Origin: Serinicoccus profundi
GTDB lineage: Bacteria; Actinomycetota; Actinomycetes; Actinomycetales; Dermatophilaceae
DNA length: 64,000 nucleotides
Assembly: GCF_008001015.1 (NCBI RefSeq)
Contig: NZ_CP042862.1
Coordinates: forward strand, 1,674,001 to 1,738,000
Direction: 5' to 3'
Positions 19,569 to 47,275 of the stretch are shown here, one piece after another (positions within the stretch are counted from its first letter, which is position 1; the number at the start of each line of letters is the position of its first letter). The position numbers and the translations under genes are program-made. Below the pieces are notes generated by a model. The model ran no database searches. It was given only the letters and a program-made list of their open reading frames with translations, and was not told the DNA's origin.

Positions 19569-19651
19569 ACCATCTGCGACGCTCGGTGGGTCGCTGGGCG
19601 ACCATCTGCGACGCTCGGTGGGTCGTAGAGCAACCATCTGCGGCGCTCGGT
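19569..19651 (-). repeat. 32-bp-period intergenic tandem repeat, array A (3 copies)
   Basis: Three copies of the core ACCATCTGCGRCGCTCGGT start at 19569, 19601 and 19633, exactly 32 bases apart, with 13-base linkers. The same core, in either orientation, recurs at 20175, 38647 and 39179. The array lies in the gap between the kamA-like and ybaK genes and abuts the ybaK start. Confidence 0.92.
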
Positions 19652-20174: not shown

Positions 20175-20385
20175 ACCGAGCGCCGCACATGGTCGCCCCA
20201 CACCCGACCGAGCGCCGCAGATGGTCGCCCCACACCCCACCGAGCGCCGCAGATGGTCGCCCCACCCCCGACCGAGCGCCGCAGATGGTCGCCCTACACC
20301 CGACCGAGCGCCGCAGATGGTCGTCCCACACCCGACCGAGCGCCGCAGATGGTCGCCCCACACCCGACCGAGCGCCGCAGATGGT
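20175..20385 (+). repeat. 32-bp-period intergenic tandem repeat, array B (7 copies)
   Basis: Seven copies of ACCGAGCGCCGCAGATGGT start at 20175, 20207, 20239, 20271, 20303, 20335 and 20367, an exact 32-base period. The 13-base linkers are near-identical variants of CGCCCCACACCCG. The array fills the gap between the convergent ybaK and lrp genes. Translations of it give repeating PTERRRW/SAADGR peptides that I treat as artefacts. Confidence 0.95.
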
Positions 20386-38646: not shown

Positions 38647-38729
38647 ACCGGGCGTCGCAGATGGTTGCCCTGGGCCCGACCGGGCGTCGCAGATGGTTCC
38701 TCTGGGCCCCACCGGGCGTCGCAGATGGT
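38647..38729 (+). repeat. 32-bp-period intergenic tandem repeat, array C (3 copies)
   Basis: Cores ACCGGGCGTCGCAGATGGT start at 38647, 38679 and 38711, exactly 32 bases apart, between the convergent antiporter and FKBP genes. The core differs from array B at two bases; linkers are TGCCCTGGGCCCG-like. Confidence 0.92.
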
Positions 38730-38733
38730 TCCC

Positions 38734-39132
38734 TCAGCGCACGTCCATGAGGTCGACGACGAAGATGAGGGTCTCGCCCCCCTTGATGGCGGCACCGGCG
38801 CCGCGGTCGCCATACCCCAGGTGCGGCGGGATGATGATCTTGCGGCGACCGCCGACCTTCATGCCGAGCAGCCCCTGGTCCCATCCCTGGATGACCTGAC
38901 CGACACCAGCGGTGAAGGTGAGCGGCTGGCCGCGGTTCCACGAGGCGTCGAACTCCTCGCCGGTGGACCATGACACGCCGACGTAGTGCGCGGAGATGGT
39001 GGAGCCGGCGGTGGCCTCCGCGCCCTTGCCGACCTCCAGGTCCTCGACGACGAGCTCGGTGGGCGGCTCGTCGCCGGGGAAGTCGATCTCGGGCTTGGCC
39101 TTCTGGACCTGGCCGAAGGGAGAGTCGGTCAT
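38734..39132 (-). CDS. FKBP-type peptidyl-prolyl isomerase
   Basis: A 132-residue cytoplasmic FKBP. The FKBP core is complete: VHY-like AHYVGVSW, FDASWNRGQPLTF, GVGQVIQGWDQGLLGMKVGG, PPHLGYGD, LIFVVDLMDV. It would speed cis-trans isomerisation of X-Pro bonds. AAGGAG lies about 5 bases before the ATG. An FKBP gene beside pafA is common in Actinobacteria. Confidence 0.95.
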   Translation of the reverse strand: MTDSPFGQVQKAKPEIDFPGDEPPTELVVEDLEVGKGAEATAGSTISAHYVGVSWSTGEEFDASWNRGQPLTFTAGVGQVIQGWDQGLLGMKVGGRRKIIIPPHLGYGDRGAGAAIKGGETLIFVVDLMDVR

Positions 39133-39178
39133 GGGGTTCTCCTTGTCGTGGTGATGTCGGGTATGTCGTGCGGTGGAG

Positions 39179-39260
39179 CCATCTGCGACGCTCGGTGGGC
39201 CCTCAGGCAACCATCTGCGACGCTCGGTCGGGTCAGGGGCGACCATCTGCGGCGCTCGGT
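39179..39260 (-). repeat. 32-bp-period intergenic tandem repeat, array D (3 copies)
   Basis: CCATCTGCGACGCTCGGT units start at 39179, 39211 and 39243, a 32-base period, in the gap between two same-strand FKBP genes. With array C it brackets the first FKBP gene. Confidence 0.92.
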
Positions 39261-39268
39261 GGGAGGGA

Positions 39269-40318
39269 TCAGGAGGCGCCGAGGATGTCGACGACGAAGA
39301 CGAGGTCCTCACCGGCGAGCTCGTGGGCCGGCGCGGCAGTCTCGCCCTCGGTGTCCTCCGGCGCGGGGCCGTAGGCCTCCTCGGCCGGGATGACCATGAG
39401 CACCCGGGAGCCGACGGTCTGGCCGACCAGGCCCTCGTCCCAGCCAGTGATGACGCTCCCGACGCCGATGGGGAACTCGGTGGGCTCGCCGCGCTCCCAG
39501 GAGCTGTCGAACTGCTCGCCGTCGGAGAGCTTCACCCCGGTGTAGTGCACCCTGATCGTCTGACCCGCGACGACCTCGGGGCCCTCGCCCTTGATGAGCG
39601 GCTGGGTGATGAGCTGCTCGGGAGCCTCGACGCCCTCGACGTCGATCTCCGGGCCGGCGTCGCCCATGGTGACGGCGGGCAGACCCTCCTCGGGCTCGAC
39701 CTCCTCGCCCTGCGCCTCGGTCAGCGGCTCGCCGGTGCCCTCGACGACCATGTAGAAGAGCATGGTGTCGGTCGGGCCGACCCCGAGCTGGGGGTTGCCG
39801 GCCTCGCCGAAAGCCTCGCTGGCCGGGATGGACATGAGCAGCTCGTCGCCCACGCTGGTGCCCGGCAGCTGGTCGCGGAAGGCGGGGAAGAGCGTCTCGT
39901 CGGTGAGGTCCAGCGTGACGGCCTCGTCGTTCTCGAAGGTCGAGACGAGCTGCTCACCGTTGGAGCCGTTGACGGTGAGGTACTTCACCCGGACCTCGTG
40001 GCTCTCGGCGACCTCCTCGCCGTCGCCCTCGGTGAGGGTGCGGCTCTCGGTCCCGCCGGCGACGAAGGGCAGGTCACCCTCGGCGAAGGGCTCACCCTCC
40101 CAGGTCAGCGCGGGAGCATCACCCTCGGTGTCGACCTCGACGTCGGCGAGGTCGCCGTTGGGCGCGGCCGAGGTGGCGGCAGCGTCGTCGCCAGGTGCGC
40201 TGCTCATCGCGGCGTCGTCGCTGCTCGAGCCCTCGTCGTTCGACTCGGGGCTGCAGCCGGCCAGGACGATGAGGGGCGCGGCGGCAGCCGCGAGATAGCG
40301 CAGTCGGGAAGAGCGCAC
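39269..40318 (-). CDS. FKBP-type isomerase lipoprotein with two FKBP-like domains
   Basis: A 349-residue lipoprotein: signal peptide with lipobox LAGC, a Ser/Asp/Ala linker to about residue 60, a first FKBP-like domain (about 90-180) that has lost several active-site residues, and a second, canonical domain with VHYTGVKLSDGEQFDSSW and GWDEGLVGQTVGSR. It acts outside the membrane as a folding factor for exported proteins. The GTG at 40318 has AAAGGA upstream. A TAGGCT at 40359-40364, containing the pafA stop, may drive it. Confidence 0.88.
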   Translation of the reverse strand: MRSSRLRYLAAAAAPLIVLAGCSPESNDEGSSSDDAAMSSAPGDDAAATSAAPNGDLADVEVDTEGDAPALTWEGEPFAEGDLPFVAGGTESRTLTEGDGEEVAESHEVRVKYLTVNGSNGEQLVSTFENDEAVTLDLTDETLFPAFRDQLPGTSVGDELLMSIPASEAFGEAGNPQLGVGPTDTMLFYMVVEGTGEPLTEAQGEEVEPEEGLPAVTMGDAGPEIDVEGVEAPEQLITQPLIKGEGPEVVAGQTIRVHYTGVKLSDGEQFDSSWERGEPTEFPIGVGSVITGWDEGLVGQTVGSRVLMVIPAEEAYGPAPEDTEGETAAPAHELAGEDLVFVVDILGAS

Positions 40319-40361: not shown

Positions 40362-41768
40362 CTAACCCGGCGACCCTGGACCTTTCGTGGGAGCACCGCT
40401 CGTGGCCCGGATGTGCTCGATCAGTGCATCCACCCGTGCATCCTGCGCGGCGAAGGGATCTTTGCAGATCACGGTGCGCTGCGCGGCGTCGTTGAGCTTG
40501 AGGTGCACCCAGTCGACGGTGAAGTCGCGCCGGTGCTCGGCGGCCGTGCGCACGAAGTCACCGCGCAACCGTGCCCGCGTCTGCGGCGGGTCGGTCGTCG
40601 CGGCCTGCACCCGGGCCTCGTCGATCACCGTTCGGGCCGCACCGGAGCGCTCCAGGATGCGGGCCAGGCCCCGGGTCGGGTGGATGTCGTGCCAGGCGAG
40701 GTCGAGCTGCTGCAACCGGGCGTCCCACGGCTCGAGCCCGTGCCGCTGGGCGTAGGAGTCGAGCAGCTTCTTCTTCATCACCCACTCGATCTCGGTGTCG
40801 ACGAGGTGCAGCTGGTCGGTGTCGATGGCGTGCAGTCCGCGCTCCCACAGCTCCAGCACGTCACGGTATGCCGCCTGGTCCGCCAGTCCGGCGCCCTCGG
40901 CATACCCCTTGGTCAGCTCGAGCAGTCGCGACTGCAGCTCCAGCGCCGTGATCGTCCCGCCCCTGCGCAGCGCGAGCGGGGTCCGCCCGGTGCGGTCCCG
41001 GCTGACGTCACGGATCGCCTGCATGGGGTTGGCGAGGACGAGGTCGGGGACGGCCGTGCCTGCCTCGAGCATCTTGAGCACGAGGTCGGTGGTGCCCAGC
41101 CGGAGCATCGTCGTGGTCTGGCTCATCGTGGAGTCGCCGACGATGACGTGCAGCCGGCGGTGCTGCTCGGGGTCGGCGTGCGGCTCGTCGCGGGTGTTGA
41201 TGATGGGCCGCGACCGGGTGGTGGCCGAGGAGAGGTCCTCCCACATGTGATCGGCGCGCTGCGAGACGAGGTAGGTCGCCCGCTGCTCGGTGACGTGCAG
41301 GCGCCCCGCCCCGGTCACGAGCTGCCGGGTGACGAGGAAGGGCACGAGGGTGTCGGTGACCCGCTCCATCCGGGTGCGCCGCTCGATGAGGTAGTTCTCG
41401 TGCGAGCCGTAGGAGTTGCCTCGCGAGTCGACGTTGTTCTTGAGCACGTAGACCGTGGCGTCGAAGCCTTCGGCCGCGAGCCGTTGCTCGGCGTCGTGGG
41501 CGAGGTCCTGCACGATGAGCTCGCCCGCCCGGTCGTGCGCGACGAGGTCGAGCAGGTCGGTGCACTCGGCCGTGGCGTACTCGGGATGGGAGCCGACGTC
41601 GAGGTAGAGCCGAGAACCGTTGCCGAGGAAGACGTTGGACGAGCGGCCCCACGCGACCACCTTGCGGAAGAGGTAGCGCGAGACCTCCTCCGGGGAGAGT
41701 CGCGAGCCACCCGCGAAGGTCGCGTTGACGCCGAACTCTGTCTCGACGCCCATGATGCGGCTCAGCAC
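40362..41768 (-). CDS. pafA: Pup--protein ligase
   Basis: A 468-residue glutamine-synthetase-like ligase that joins the C-terminal glutamate of Pup to lysines of target proteins. Seen: RIMGVETEFGV (with the GTG at 41768 giving the usual 5-residue lead), SHPEYATAEC, KNNVDSRGNSYGSHENYL and INTRDEPHADPE, all catalytic regions. Length is normal. The start lies 10 bases after the pup stop, so prcB/prcA are absent from their usual place. Confidence 0.95.
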   Translation of the reverse strand: MLSRIMGVETEFGVNATFAGGSRLSPEEVSRYLFRKVVAWGRSSNVFLGNGSRLYLDVGSHPEYATAECTDLLDLVAHDRAGELIVQDLAHDAEQRLAAEGFDATVYVLKNNVDSRGNSYGSHENYLIERRTRMERVTDTLVPFLVTRQLVTGAGRLHVTEQRATYLVSQRADHMWEDLSSATTRSRPIINTRDEPHADPEQHRRLHVIVGDSTMSQTTTMLRLGTTDLVLKMLEAGTAVPDLVLANPMQAIRDVSRDRTGRTPLALRRGGTITALELQSRLLELTKGYAEGAGLADQAAYRDVLELWERGLHAIDTDQLHLVDTEIEWVMKKKLLDSYAQRHGLEPWDARLQQLDLAWHDIHPTRGLARILERSGAARTVIDEARVQAATTDPPQTRARLRGDFVRTAAEHRRDFTVDWVHLKLNDAAQRTVICKDPFAAQDARVDALIEHIRATSGAPTKGPGSPG

Positions 41769-41778
41769 GGCGCCACGA

Positions 41779-41988
41779 TCACTGACCGCCCTTCTGGACG
41801 AAGCCGTGGACGAACTCGGTGGCGTTGGTCTCCAGCACCCCGTCGATCTCGTCGAGGAGGGAGTCGAGCGCGGCGTCGCGCTCGGCGCTCTGCGCGGTCG
41901 GGGCGCTCGGCGGCGGGGTGGCGTCCGGGTCCGGCCCGGTGTCCCCGGCGTCCTCGTCCCGTCGACGGTCGAACTGCTGCTGTGACAT
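41779..41988 (-). CDS. pup: Prokaryotic ubiquitin-like protein Pup
   Basis: A 69-residue intrinsically disordered tag. The N-terminus MSQQQFDRRRDED and the C-terminal ALDSLLDEIDGVLETNATEF helical part are standard, and the protein ends in GGQ, so it requires Dop to deamidate Gln to Glu before ligation. TAGGAT six bases before the ATG (41995-42000) suggests its own leaderless promoter. Confidence 0.95.
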   Translation of the reverse strand: MSQQQFDRRRDEDAGDTGPDPDATPPPSAPTAQSAERDAALDSLLDEIDGVLETNATEFVHGFVQKGGQ

Positions 41989-42000
41989 GGACCGATCCTA
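41989..42000 (-). promoter_or_regulatory. Leaderless -10 box of pup
   Basis: TAGGAT at 41995-42000 on the minus strand ends six bases before the pup ATG; it lies just after the dop stop. Confidence 0.5.
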
Positions 42001-42001
42001 G

Positions 42002-43558
42002 TCAGACGTCGTCGCTGGCGAGCTCGGAGAGCAGGCTCGCGGCGTCGGTATGCCGGTCCAGCAGCGACTCGACGCGCTCGCGCCGTCCCCCGGTCGGCTC
42101 GTCCATGCGCACGCGGCGCGGTGAGCCGCTGGCGTCGACGAGGACGACCGAGTCCCAGGACGCCGCCCGCACTCCCCCGCCGGGCCCGTAGCGGCGTACG
42201 GCCTCCCCGCGGAACCATGCGCGGGTGTCCTCGGGCGGGTGGGTCACGGCGTGCGCGATCTCCTCCGGCCCCACCAGCCGCTCGAGCTGGCCGGAGGCGC
42301 GCAGCTTGCGGGCCAGACCCCGCGCGGGGTCGAGGTCGTGCCACTGGATGTCCATGGCGGCCAGCCTGGGGTCGTCCCAGCCGACCCCGGCGCGCGCCGC
42401 GAAGCGTTGCAGGAGCTGGTGCTTGGCCACCCACTCGACCTGGCCGGCCGCCGTCGCCGGGTCACTCCGCAGGGTGTCGAGCACCGCGCGCCAGCGGTGG
42501 AGCACGTCGCCGGTCTGAGGGGCGTGCTCCGGCTCCTGCCAGGCTTCGTGCCCGGAGGCCGCGGCCCGCTCCACCGCGTCGAGGTGGGCCTCGAGCAGGT
42601 CGAGGCCGGTGAGCCGGCGACCGTCGGCGAGGTCGACCGCGGTCGTGAGCGTCGGGTCGTGGCTGATCCTCTGCGCGGCCGCGACGGGATGGGCCAGGGT
42701 CAGACCGTCGAGCAGGTCGGGGTGGGTCTCGATGACGCGCAGGACCGCCGACAGCGTCCCCAGGGCGAGGTAGGTCGTGACGTCGGCCATGGTCGCGTCG
42801 CCGACGATGACGTGCAGGCGGCGGTGCAGGTGGGGGGTGGCGTGCGGCTCGTCACGGGTGTTGACGATCGGCCGGCGCAGCGTCGTCTCCAGGCCCACCT
42901 CGGCCTCGAGGTAGTCGGCTCGCTGGGAGAGCTGGAAGCCGGGGCGCTCGCTGGCCTGACCCAGGCCGACCCGCCCCGCGCCGGCGATGACCGGCCGCGC
43001 CACGAGGAAGGGGATGAGCAGCGTCGCCAACCGGGCGAAGGGCACCGACCGCGGGACGAGGTAGTTCTCGTGGGTGCCGTAGGAGGCGCCCTTGCCGTCG
43101 ACGTTGTTCTTGTAGAGCCGCACGTCCAGCCCCTGCTCGGCCAGCGTGCGGACCGCCGCGAGCGCCACCTCCTCCCCCGCCCGGTCGTAGCGGACCGCGG
43201 CCAGCGGCCCGGTGACCTCCGGGCTGGAGTACTCCGGGTGGGCGTGGTCGACGTAGAAACGGGCCCCGTTGGAGAGCACCGAGGTGGCGATCGTCGGGTC
43301 GTCCACATCGGTGAGCTGCGAGCGGTGCGCCAGGGCCCGGGCCATCTCGAAGCCGCGCGCGTCCCGCAGCGGGGTTTCGTCGGCGTAGTCCCAGCCCGCG
43401 CCGGAGGGCAGGGCGTCCCCGGGCGCGGCGCCCGCGGCATAGGCCCGCACCACCTGCCCGGAGAGGACCATCGGCGTCACCGGCTGGCCGACCGCGTCGC
43501 GCTGGGTGCTCGTGATCCCCAGCTCGGTCTCGATGCCCATGACCCGGCCCACGCCCAC
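42002..43558 (-). CDS. dop: Pup deamidase/depupylase
   Basis: A 518-residue homologue of PafA. MGIETELGIT (near residue 7), the HPEYSSPEV block, YKNNVDGKGASYGTHENYL and NTRDEPHATP are clear, and it has the Dop-type RDARGFEMARA insertion. It deamidates Pup-GGQ and removes Pup from substrates. The GTG at 43558 is chosen since GAGGAG lies 10 bases upstream; the ATG at 43540 is possible. Begins 14 bases after the MFS fusion gene. Confidence 0.93.
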   Translation of the reverse strand: MGVGRVMGIETELGITSTQRDAVGQPVTPMVLSGQVVRAYAAGAAPGDALPSGAGWDYADETPLRDARGFEMARALAHRSQLTDVDDPTIATSVLSNGARFYVDHAHPEYSSPEVTGPLAAVRYDRAGEEVALAAVRTLAEQGLDVRLYKNNVDGKGASYGTHENYLVPRSVPFARLATLLIPFLVARPVIAGAGRVGLGQASERPGFQLSQRADYLEAEVGLETTLRRPIVNTRDEPHATPHLHRRLHVIVGDATMADVTTYLALGTLSAVLRVIETHPDLLDGLTLAHPVAAAQRISHDPTLTTAVDLADGRRLTGLDLLEAHLDAVERAAASGHEAWQEPEHAPQTGDVLHRWRAVLDTLRSDPATAAGQVEWVAKHQLLQRFAARAGVGWDDPRLAAMDIQWHDLDPARGLARKLRASGQLERLVGPEEIAHAVTHPPEDTRAWFRGEAVRRYGPGGGVRAASWDSVVLVDASGSPRRVRMDEPTGGRRERVESLLDRHTDAASLLSELASDDV

Positions 43559-43572
43559 GCCCTGCACGCTCC

Positions 43573-45587
43573 TCACGCGTCGACCCGGGGCCGCGGCACC
43601 CCGGTGACGATGTCGAGGTCGAGGGTGGTCGAGGTCGCGAGGACGGTCAGCGCCCGCGAGCGGGTGCGGCCCGAACCGTGGTCGACCGCGGTGAGGACGT
43701 AGCGCCCCGGCGGCGGCAGCCCGACCTCGTAGTAGCCCTCGGCGTCGGTGTGCGCGGTCGCGACGAACTCCCCGGAGTGCTTGATGAGCGAGACGAGCAC
43801 CTCCCCCAGCGGCGCGCCCTCGTCGAAGACGTGCCCGGACAGCAGCAGCCGCCGCGTCATCGTCACGTCCTCCTCGTGCCCGACCGAGAGGTCGACGAGG
43901 CAGGACTGCGGCGCCCAGCCGTCGGCCGACACGACGAGGAGGTAGGCCCCGGGCTCGGGCAGCGCGAGGGTGTAGCGGCCGTCGTTGTCGGTGCGGCCCC
44001 AGTCGATGTGGGTGCCGTCGGGGCGCAGCACGGTCGTCACCGCCTGGCGCAGCGGTCCGCCCCGCGGTCCGACCACGCGGCCGCGGACGAGCAGCTCGGG
44101 CAGGTCGCCCATCCCGTGCTTGACCTCGGTGCGCTCCCCGGCCGGCCCCGACGCGACGCCTGGCTCCTCGACCTGCGCCCGCTGCGGCCGACGGATGAAG
44201 GCGGCGATGAGCCCGCCACCCAGTGACGCCGCGGCGCCGGCCCAGAAGATGAGCTGGTATGCCTCGAAGCTGGGCGCCAGCTCGCCGCTGGCGGTGGCGG
44301 TCATCGAGGCGGCGAAGACGGCTGCGACGAGCGCGGACGCCGAGGAGGTGCCGAGCGAGCGCAGCAGCGTGTTGAGGCCGTTGGCCGACGCGGTCTCGGT
44401 GATGGGCACGGCCCGCATGATGAGCGTGGGCATCGCGGCGAAGGCGAGCGCCGTGCCGAGCGAGGCGATGCTGGAGGTGATGACGACCTCGAGCACGCTG
44501 CGGTGCAGCAGGGAGCGGCCGACGAAGCCGACGGCGATGGTGATCGCCCCGGCGATGAGCACCGCCCGGGCGCCGTAGCGCCGGATCATCCCCGCCGAGA
44601 CCGGGGACATCGCGACCATGAGCAGGCCGCTGGGCAGCAGCACGAGCCCCGTCGCGACCACGGACAGGCCGAAGCCGTAGCCGGCATCTGCACCTGCTGC
44701 GCCGAGGTGAGGAAGTTGGCGAACATCGCGAAGCCGATGAGCACCGAGGCCGCGTTGGTGAGCAGCACGGTGCGCCGCATGGAGGTGCGGATGTCGACGA
44801 GCGGCTGGCCGGTCCGCAGCTCCCACGGCACCCACGCGGCGAGCACGAGCCCGGCACCGACGAGCAGGCTGAGCGTCAGCGGCGAGGACCAGCCCCACGT
44901 GCCGGCCTTGCTCACGGCGAGCAGGAAGCCGGTGAGCGCGAGCGAGAGCAGGGCGGCGCCGAGGTAGTCGAAGCGGCCCCGGGTCTTGACCGTCGACTCG
45001 GGCACGACGAGGTAGACGGCCACGAGCATGACGACCGCGAAGCCACCGGAGACGTAGAACAGCGCGTGCCAGTCGAGGTTGTCGTAGATCACGCCGGCGA
45101 GCGGCATACCGATGGCGCCGCCGATGCCCAGGGTGGCCGACATGAGGGCCACGCCGGAGCCGACCCGGTCGGCGGGGAGGTGGTCGCGCATGATGCTGAT
45201 CCCGACCGGCACCAGGCAGGCCCCCAGCCCGCTGAGGCCGCGCCCGAGCAGGACCAGCGCCAGCTCGCTGCTCAGCGCGGAGACGATCGACCCGGCGATG
45301 ACGGCCCACATGCACACGATGAGCAGCAGCCGCTTGCCGAACATGTCGGCGAGGCGGGAGACGATCGGGGTGCCGACGGCGGCGGTGAGCAGCGTCACCG
45401 TGACGAGCCACGAGGCGTTGTCGCTGGTGGTGTCGAGGATCTCCGGGAAGTCCGGGAGCAGCGGCAGGACGAGCGTCTGCTGGAGCGAGACGAGCGTGCC
45501 GCACAGCGACAGGACGATGATGATCGCCGTGGTCGGGGTGGTGGGTGCGGACGCCGGTGTGGTCTTCTCGCCCGCAGCAACTGCCAT
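43573..45587 (-). pseudogene. MFS transporter fused to two carboxypeptidase-regulatory-like domains, frameshifted near 44688
   Basis: Residues about 25-300 of the first frame (start 45587) form the N-terminal helices of a drug-type MFS permease (SRLADMFGKRLLLIV is motif A-like). The frame breaks after SAQQVQMPA; a second frame resumes at GYGFGLSVVATGL and adds the last helices, then two carboxypeptidase-regulatory-like beta-sandwich domains (VRGRVVGPRGGPL..., LSGHVFDEGAPLG...). One missing G in ATGCCGGCTAC would repair it. An exporter with this tail is unusual in the middle of a Pup locus. TAGGGT lies seven bases before the ATG. Confidence 0.8.
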
Positions 45588-45634
45588 GCGGCAAACCCTA
45601 CGCCTGCGCCCTCGCGGCGGCGGAGGGTGGCGGC

Positions 45635-47275
45635 TCAGCGCTCCCCGAGATCGACCGAGCGGCCCGGCTGGGTGCCGGACGCGTCGCCGACGAGGGTGCG
45701 GATGTAGGTGATCCGCTCCCCCTTCTTGCCCGACACCCGCGCCCAGTCGTCCGGGTTGGTGGTGTTGGGCAGGTCCTCGTTCTCCTTGAACTCATCGAGG
45801 TAGGCCTGCTCGAGGTGCCGCTCGCGCAGCCCCTCCTCGCCGTGGGTGAGCAGGTCCTTGATCGCCAGCTTCTTGGCGCGGTCCACGATGTTGTGCACCA
45901 TCGCCCCGGAGGCGAAGTCGCGGAAGTAGAGCACCTCCTTGTCACCCCCGGCGTAGGTCACCTCGAGGAAGGCGTTGGCCGGCGACACGGCATACATCCG
46001 CTGCACGACGCCGTCGATGAGCGCGGCGACGGTCGCCTCGCGGTCCTGCCCGTGCGCGGCGAGCGCGCTGGGGTGCAGGGGTATGCCGGAGGTGAGGTAC
46101 TTGGAGAAGATGTCGCGGGCGCCGTCGGCGTCGGGGCGCTCGATCTTGATCTTCACGTCGAGGCGGCCGGGGCGCAGGATCGCCGGGTCGATCATGTCCT
46201 CCCGGTTGGAGGCGCCGATGACGATGACGTTGTCGAGCCGCTCGACCCCGTCGATCTCGGCGAGCAGCTGCGGCACGATCGTGGTCTCCACGTCGGAGGA
46301 CACCCCCGAGCCCCGGGTGCGGAAGAGCGACTCCATCTCGTCGAAGAAGACGACCACCGGGTCGCCCTCGGCCGACTTCTCCCGCGCCCGCTGGAAGATC
46401 ATCCGGATGTGCCGCTCGGTCTCCCCGACGTACTTGTTGAGCAGCTCGGGGCCCTTGATGTTGAGGAAGTAGCTGCGTGCGCCGCCCGCGGTCTGCCCCT
46501 TCTGCTCGGCCGCCTGCCGGGCAAGCGAGGCGGCGACCGCCTTGGCGATGAGAGTCTTGCCGCAGCCGGGAGGGCCGTAGAGCAGCACGCCCTTGGGCGG
46601 GCGCAGGTCGTGGGTCTCGTAGAGCTCGGCGTGCAGGAAGGGCAGCTCGACGGCGTCCCGGATCTGCTCGATCTGCCCGGTCAGCCCACCGATGTCGGCA
46701 TAGGAGATGTCGGGCACCTCCTCGAGCATGAGCTCGGTGACCTCCGGGCGCTCGATCCGCTCGGTGACGAAGCCGCTGCGGGAGTCCAGCAGCAGGGCGT
46801 CCCCGACCCGCACCGGCGCGTCGGCGAGCGACCCGGCACGCCGCGCGATCCGCTCGTCCTCACCGCGCACGAGCACCGTGAGGCGACCGTCGTCGAGCAC
46901 CTCCTTGCAGGTGACGACGTCACCGGCGCGCTCGTAGTCGGCGACCCCGACGATCGCCTGGGCGTCGTTGAGCAGCACCTCGCGCCCGGGCCGCAGGTCA
47001 CCGGTGTCGACCTCAGAGGAGATCTGGGTGCGGATCCGCCGCCCGGACAGCGAGACGTCCGCGGTGCCGTCGCCGACGAGGCGCAGCACGAGGCCCATGG
47101 TGAGCGGCGGCGAGGCGAGCGCGTCGAGGTCCTCGCGCAGCCCCACGATCTGGGCCTTGGCGCTCTTGAGCGTCGTCGTCAGGGCGTCGTTCTGCCCCTT
47201 GAGGTCGCTGACCCGCCCGCTGAGCGACTGCACCTGCTGCTCGAGGTGGCGCTCCCGTGAGGTGGCCTCGCTCAT
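45635..47275 (-). CDS. arc: Proteasome-associated AAA ATPase (ARC/Mpa)
   Basis: A 546-residue AAA+ unfoldase. An N-terminal coiled coil (about 5-50) binds Pup; OB domains follow (about 60-180); the ATPase has GPPGCGKT (Walker A) and [11 protein letters not shown] (Walker B), plus the pore region [20 protein letters not shown]. It unfolds pupylated proteins. The C-terminus is ...[13 protein letters not shown] and lacks the QYL docking motif of mycobacterial Mpa. It is shorter than M. tuberculosis Mpa (609). Overlaps trmI by four bases. Confidence 0.94.

Follow-up and report, generated by a model that had tools for sequence, protein, structure and literature searches.

A pupylation locus without a 20S proteasome in Serinicoccus profundi

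Introduction

What keeps a set of Pup-tagging genes in a genome that has no 20S proteasome? The question is raised by a locus in a 64,000-nucleotide stretch of Serinicoccus profundi DNA (contig NZ_CP042862.1, positions 1,674,001 to 1,738,000), which we call the window. Proteasome-less pupylation is itself already published. According to the sections of a 2012 review cited here, some actinobacteria, such as corynebacteria, are without the subunit genes, and pup then stands directly before pafA; genomes without prcBA keep the ATPase, its C-terminal docking motif is missing, and a different role was inferred (PMC3511204). That review and another, in the parts that treat this arrangement, read it as pointing to a non-degradative role (PMC3511204, PMC8223512). 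In the sections cited here, the one worked-out example of Pup tagging without a proteasome is ferritin in Corynebacterium glutamicum, where, as the second review describes it, pupylation mobilises ferritin iron (PMC8223512). Our literature search found nothing that joins pupylation and Serinicoccus. What is new here are counts across the family, and the interest is increased by a ferritin that is missing along with the 20S.

Results

The pupylation locus

The order on the minus strand of the window is arc, an MFS gene, dop, pup and pafA. The group is preceded by a gene for a TrmI-like methyltransferase and followed by one for an FKBP; the frames of pup, pafA, dop and arc are all open. The arc gene (47275-45635, minus strand) encodes a AAA+ ring ATPase of the Mpa/ARC family of 546 aa, with matches to PF00004, PF17758, PF16450 and the proteasome ATPase model TIGR03689 (778.8 bits, NCBIfam cut-off 504.75), and aligns with Mpa (7px9) across residues 13-542. 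Its motor motifs, including NKYVG, are kept; we take them to be Walker A, Walker B and the pore loop. As to the Cdc48-like ATPase Cpa, which a proteasome-less pupylation system is expected to lack, a search with this ARC as the query gave two further AAA matches in the same genome, lying in open reading frames 753 and 497 aa long.

The dop gene, for the Pup deamidase/depupylase, runs on the minus strand from a GTG start whose position is uncertain (43567 to 43552) to 42002. Its product scores 585.9 bits against TIGR03688 (cut-off 492.3) and can be aligned to the solved depupylase 5lrt over almost its whole length. Pup (41988-41779, minus strand) has 69 aa, ends in KGGQ and matches both PF05639 (65.7 bits) and the Pup C-terminus model TIGR03687 (67.1 bits, cut-off 41.45). 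Among 104 rows in which a Pup end was found, including L001 and L128, which are apparently one and the same contig, 73 end in KGGQ and 31 in KGGE. The Pup-protein ligase gene pafA (41768-40362, minus strand, GTG start, 468 aa) gives 661 bits with TIGR03686 (cut-off 551.3); the alignment of its product to the solved ligase 4b0t covers almost the full length, and both have YLDVGSHPEYA. The sequence-only reading of this DNA was thus right in naming the four genes, all of which pass the NCBIfam cut-offs, but it left out the MFS gene between arc and dop. It had also placed the end of pup 10 bases before pafA, and this is what the coordinates give: pup stops at 41779, pafA starts at 41768, and the junction (41769-41778) is the site where prcB and prcA stand after pup in 20S-bearing relatives.

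The MFS gene (45587-43573, minus strand) lies in two reading frames in the window, both matching PF07690, and has two CarboxypepD_reg stretches (PF13620) at its C-terminal end. At the frame junction near 44680 the window has 10 bases fewer than S. sediminis and S. chungangensis. In L001 and L002 the gene is one uninterrupted frame, 676 aa from stop to stop; the break is either recent or an assembly error. A relative also stands between arc and dop in G047, G080, G104, G116, G073, G009, G058 and the 20S-bearing G102; in G052, which also has a 20S, a relative lies upstream of dop. The gene is outside the pupylation machinery.

No RNA family matched the window at gathering thresholds. Elsewhere in the window a short repeat with the core CATCTGCGACGC and a 32-base spacing is found at 38652-38727 (minus), 39180-39255 (plus), 19571-19646 (plus) and 20212-20383 (minus), the first two sets on opposite strands and flanking an FKBP-like frame (38734-39312). 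In the window it gives 16 matches with at most one mismatch, where 1.34 are expected. The sequence AACCATCTGCGACGC occurs 59 times in the genome and 0 times in three genomes of the same genus.

Absence of the 20S proteasome and Bpa

A profile search with the proteasome family PF00227 gave no match in the S. profundi genome (one contig, 3,475,711 bases, 100% complete); the control search gave matches in 10 of 14 known genomes. PF00227 presumably also covers HslV, as PF00210, used below, presumably covers Dps. The sequence-only reading had found prcA and prcB missing and had named a copy elsewhere in the genome as its refuting result; the whole-genome search found none, and that candidate was rejected. 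We likewise rejected the idea that the genes are missing because of an assembly gap, as the genome is a single complete contig and its sampled genus mates are also without a match.

PF00227 is present in 97 of 119 sampled genomes of the family and missing from 22, among them all four sampled from the genus (S. profundi and three others). Searches of S. sediminis and S. chungangensis gave no PF00227 match, while Ornithinimicrobium murale and Ornithinimicrobium sp. F0845 do match. Both Pup and a long ARC are kept in 17 of the 22; in G090 the long ARC match is divided between two frames, and in G035 it crosses a stop. Three of the others, G028, G029 and G095 (58 to 82% complete), have neither a Pup nor a long ARC match, and the same is true of G008 and G057, two genomes of one genus that are 99% complete. 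Among the 17 Pup-bearing loci without a 20S, dop was seen in 17 and pafA in 14; in G116 (L131), G073 (L132) and G099 (L136) there was no pafA within the fetched stretch. In G035 (L137) and G049 (L142) 1.4 to 1.9 kb separate pup from pafA. Open frames stand in this gap, and also after pup in G116 and G099.

Bpa (PF10759) has no match in the S. profundi genome, and its matches number 0 in 19 sampled 20S-lacking genomes (S. profundi included) against 15 in 19 sampled 20S-bearing ones. G048 (L155) has a 20S and no Bpa match. Bpa is described as strictly co-occurring with the proteasome in the section of PMC8223512 that treats it; our sample fits this for the 20S-lacking genomes, but not fully for the 20S-bearing ones.

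The ARC C-terminus

The window ARC ends in GRSVDLGER with no QYL, just as the sequence-only reading had it, and has no penultimate tyrosine. That reading had also suggested checking the C-termini of relatives. A QYL end is found in 0 of 17 ARCs from Pup-bearing genomes without a 20S (0 of 16 if G090, whose tail was read in the frame that matched over the greater length, is left out), against 13 of the 16 readable ARCs of 20S-bearing relatives. The latter come from a sample of 20 of the 97 genomes, mostly one per genus, from which four loci that stop short of arc (L149, L150, L155, L159) were dropped. Two Ornithinimicrobium relatives retain both the 20S and GQYL, and in 77 of the best 80 of 570 confirmed stretches ARC ends in QYL, the others being two Serinicoccus loci and one GPYL. 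In the sampled family, then, the QYL end is lost along with the 20S, but three 20S-bearing genomes are exceptions: G002 ends in GEYL, G110 in ETYL and G013 in GDVL. As the Q of QYL is described as freely exchangeable in the part of PMC6017811 concerned, GEYL may still dock. These three loci (L157, L163 and L161, respectively) have prcB and prcA, non-QYL ends and no PF10759 match, and are possibly at a stage between use and loss of the 20S. The 20S-lacking G061 has an ARC ending in GEYV.

A hairpin is a second contact of ARC with the 20S, as the relevant part of a cryo-EM paper describes it (PMC8755798). In the window ARC it reads AGGDK, identical to that of the 20S-bearing Ornithinimicrobium, and in S. 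sediminis and S. chungangensis AGGDR. It is altered in other genomes without a 20S, as in g36, with LSGAK, and the same-genus G104, with ASGRS; several rows of this pattern search gave no usable hairpin. The window hairpin is unchanged, and therefore not every trace of docking is gone.

These tails also bear on whether degradation continues with a new partner, a different chambered protease (Clp, for instance) that would receive the Pup-tagged proteins from ARC. The motor motifs of ARC are kept, the GRSV(D/E)LGER end is common to four Serinicoccus-type rows, and the genome has four ClpP-type genes in two pairs (G000:C1:899100-900380 and 3395182-3396341). However, an end common to close kin is weak evidence, ARC ends vary among the 20S-lacking genera, so that there is no shared new docking motif, and no protease gene was seen adjoining the four pupylation genes in the window. 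We consider a new protease partner improbable. The second ClpP pair is also found in G047, and not in G080 or G104.

History of the losses and selection on the genes

For a tree of 43 rows, 18 without and 25 with a 20S, we used ARC trimmed of its last 25 residues together with Dop and PafA. Of its 40 inner branches 21 are starred; some rows are only one third filled, and the branches of G002, G104 and G049 are long. Mapping the 20S state needs at least 5 changes. If only losses are counted, the best tree has 7, and collapsing the weak branches brings this down to 4. The starred set that holds the window (7 rows, 100/99) is mixed, with Ornithinimicrobium bearing the 20S and Serinicoccus and G104 lacking it, and both states are also present in the starred set of G045, G002, G090, G110, G061 and G013 (100/100). 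The 20S was lost more than once in the family, provided that it was not regained by transfer. A sign test of 20S loss against tail loss, with a tail ending in YL or YV as the trait, had four pairs on supported branches and was not significant (p 0.125 to 0.625); the link between the two losses rests on few independent events.

Could the genes be a relict that has been decaying since the 20S was lost, with no present function? Some of the family data would fit: G008 and G057 have neither Pup nor a long ARC, the ARC match is interrupted in G090 and G035, and pup has a pN/pS of 0.74 (60 codons) in the 20S-lacking pair G009/G058. Another such pair, G074/G037, is looser in arc (0.31) and dop (0.32). 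In the lineage of the window the values are low, and near those of 20S-bearing pairs and of trmI. Against S. sediminis they are 0.16 for arc, 0.13 for pafA, 0.22 for dop, 0.27 for pup (68 codons) and 0.24 for trmI; against G047 they are 0.15, 0.27, 0.25, 0.38 and 0.25, respectively; and arc in 20S-bearing pairs gives 0.12 to 0.20. These are simple counts, uncorrected for codon bias. The pafA values for L131/L136, L145/L158 and L147/L149 stem from a Dop paralogue and were left out, and those for the two parts of the MFS gene (mfsN, mfsC) can enter neighbouring frames and are indicative only. The low pN/pS argues against decay in the window lineage. Pup and a long ARC are retained in most of the 20S-lacking genomes, and we regard a functionless relict as very unlikely.

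Ferritin

The gene arrangement is that of C. glutamicum, which raises the possibility that ARC disassembles pupylated ferritin and releases its iron. Across the family, PF00210 is matched in 12 of the 17 Pup-bearing genomes without a 20S and in 15 of 19 sampled 20S-bearing ones. By the best NCBIfam model of the PF00210-matched stretch, the matches in the 12 are non-heme ferritin-like in six, all below the cut-off, and bacterioferritin-like in six, four above and two just below it. The S. profundi genome, however, gave no PF00210 match in a search that matched in all 14 control genomes; the ferritin of the same-genus G047 used as a query found only a match at E 0.06, and encapsulin (PF04454) had no match either. 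Nor is S. profundi (G000) alone: Pup and ARC occur with no PF00210 match in G080, G035, G058 and G099 as well; species of three genera of the family (g1, g10, g36) keep Pup, Dop and ARC with neither a 20S nor a PF00210 ferritin. Absence of PF00210 is no special mark of the 20S-lacking genomes (5 of 17), as it is also found in 4 of 19 20S-bearing ones (G025, G032, G052, G013).

As there is no PF00210 match in its own genome, S. profundi cannot owe the retention of the system to a PF00210 ferritin, and such a ferritin is excluded as the ARC target in this strain. Ferritin disassembly with iron release, as a general account of the locus, has in our view hardly any chance of being right.

Discussion

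Our reading is that the pupylation cycle is kept by selection and no longer ends in proteasomal degradation, to which we give a probability of about 0.8. The non-proteasomal purpose suggested by the sequence-only reading is supported by a genome in which no prcBA was found and by a QYL loss that goes with 20S loss. In such a cycle Dop would deamidate Pup-GGQ and PafA would attach Pup to lysines of target proteins. ARC would bind the Pup tag and pull on the target, with no hand-over to a 20S chamber, and Pup would be taken off again by Dop. Tagged complexes might thus be unfolded or disassembled, or reversibly marked, instead of being destroyed. In this lineage prcBA, once placed between pup and pafA, would have been lost, and ARC would have lost its GQYL end or had it replaced.

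ARC is most likely a stand-alone unfoldase acting on other tagged proteins. It seems somewhat better than an even bet that proteasome-free pupylation is kept for a target other than ferritin or a proteasome substrate, through a general cycle of ARC-driven disassembly or reversible tagging. From the sequences we infer the biochemical cycle, the absence of a protease partner and the non-ferritin target. An organism without 20S, Bpa or ferritin matches removes both standard answers, and a single pupylome experiment could therefore show the remaining function.

The system is like that of C. glutamicum, as described in the sections of the reviews cited here, in having pup directly before pafA, in keeping dop and ARC, and in lacking prcBA, the ARC docking motif (PMC3511204) and Bpa (PMC8223512). 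Unlike C. glutamicum, it has a Pup ending in GGQ, not GGE (by the cited part of PMC3511204), an ARC hairpin of AGGDK, not IDGSV (by that of PMC8755798), an MFS gene between arc and dop, and no PF00210 match in the genome. The parallel that the sequence-only reading drew with C. glutamicum therefore extends to the arrangement of the genes; the known substrate falls outside it. From the 20S-bearing Pup-proteasome system of Mycobacterium, Streptomyces and most of the sampled relatives the window differs in its lack of PrcA/PrcB, a QYL end and a Bpa match; the four proteins of its own tagging pathway are the same, and they stand in the same order.
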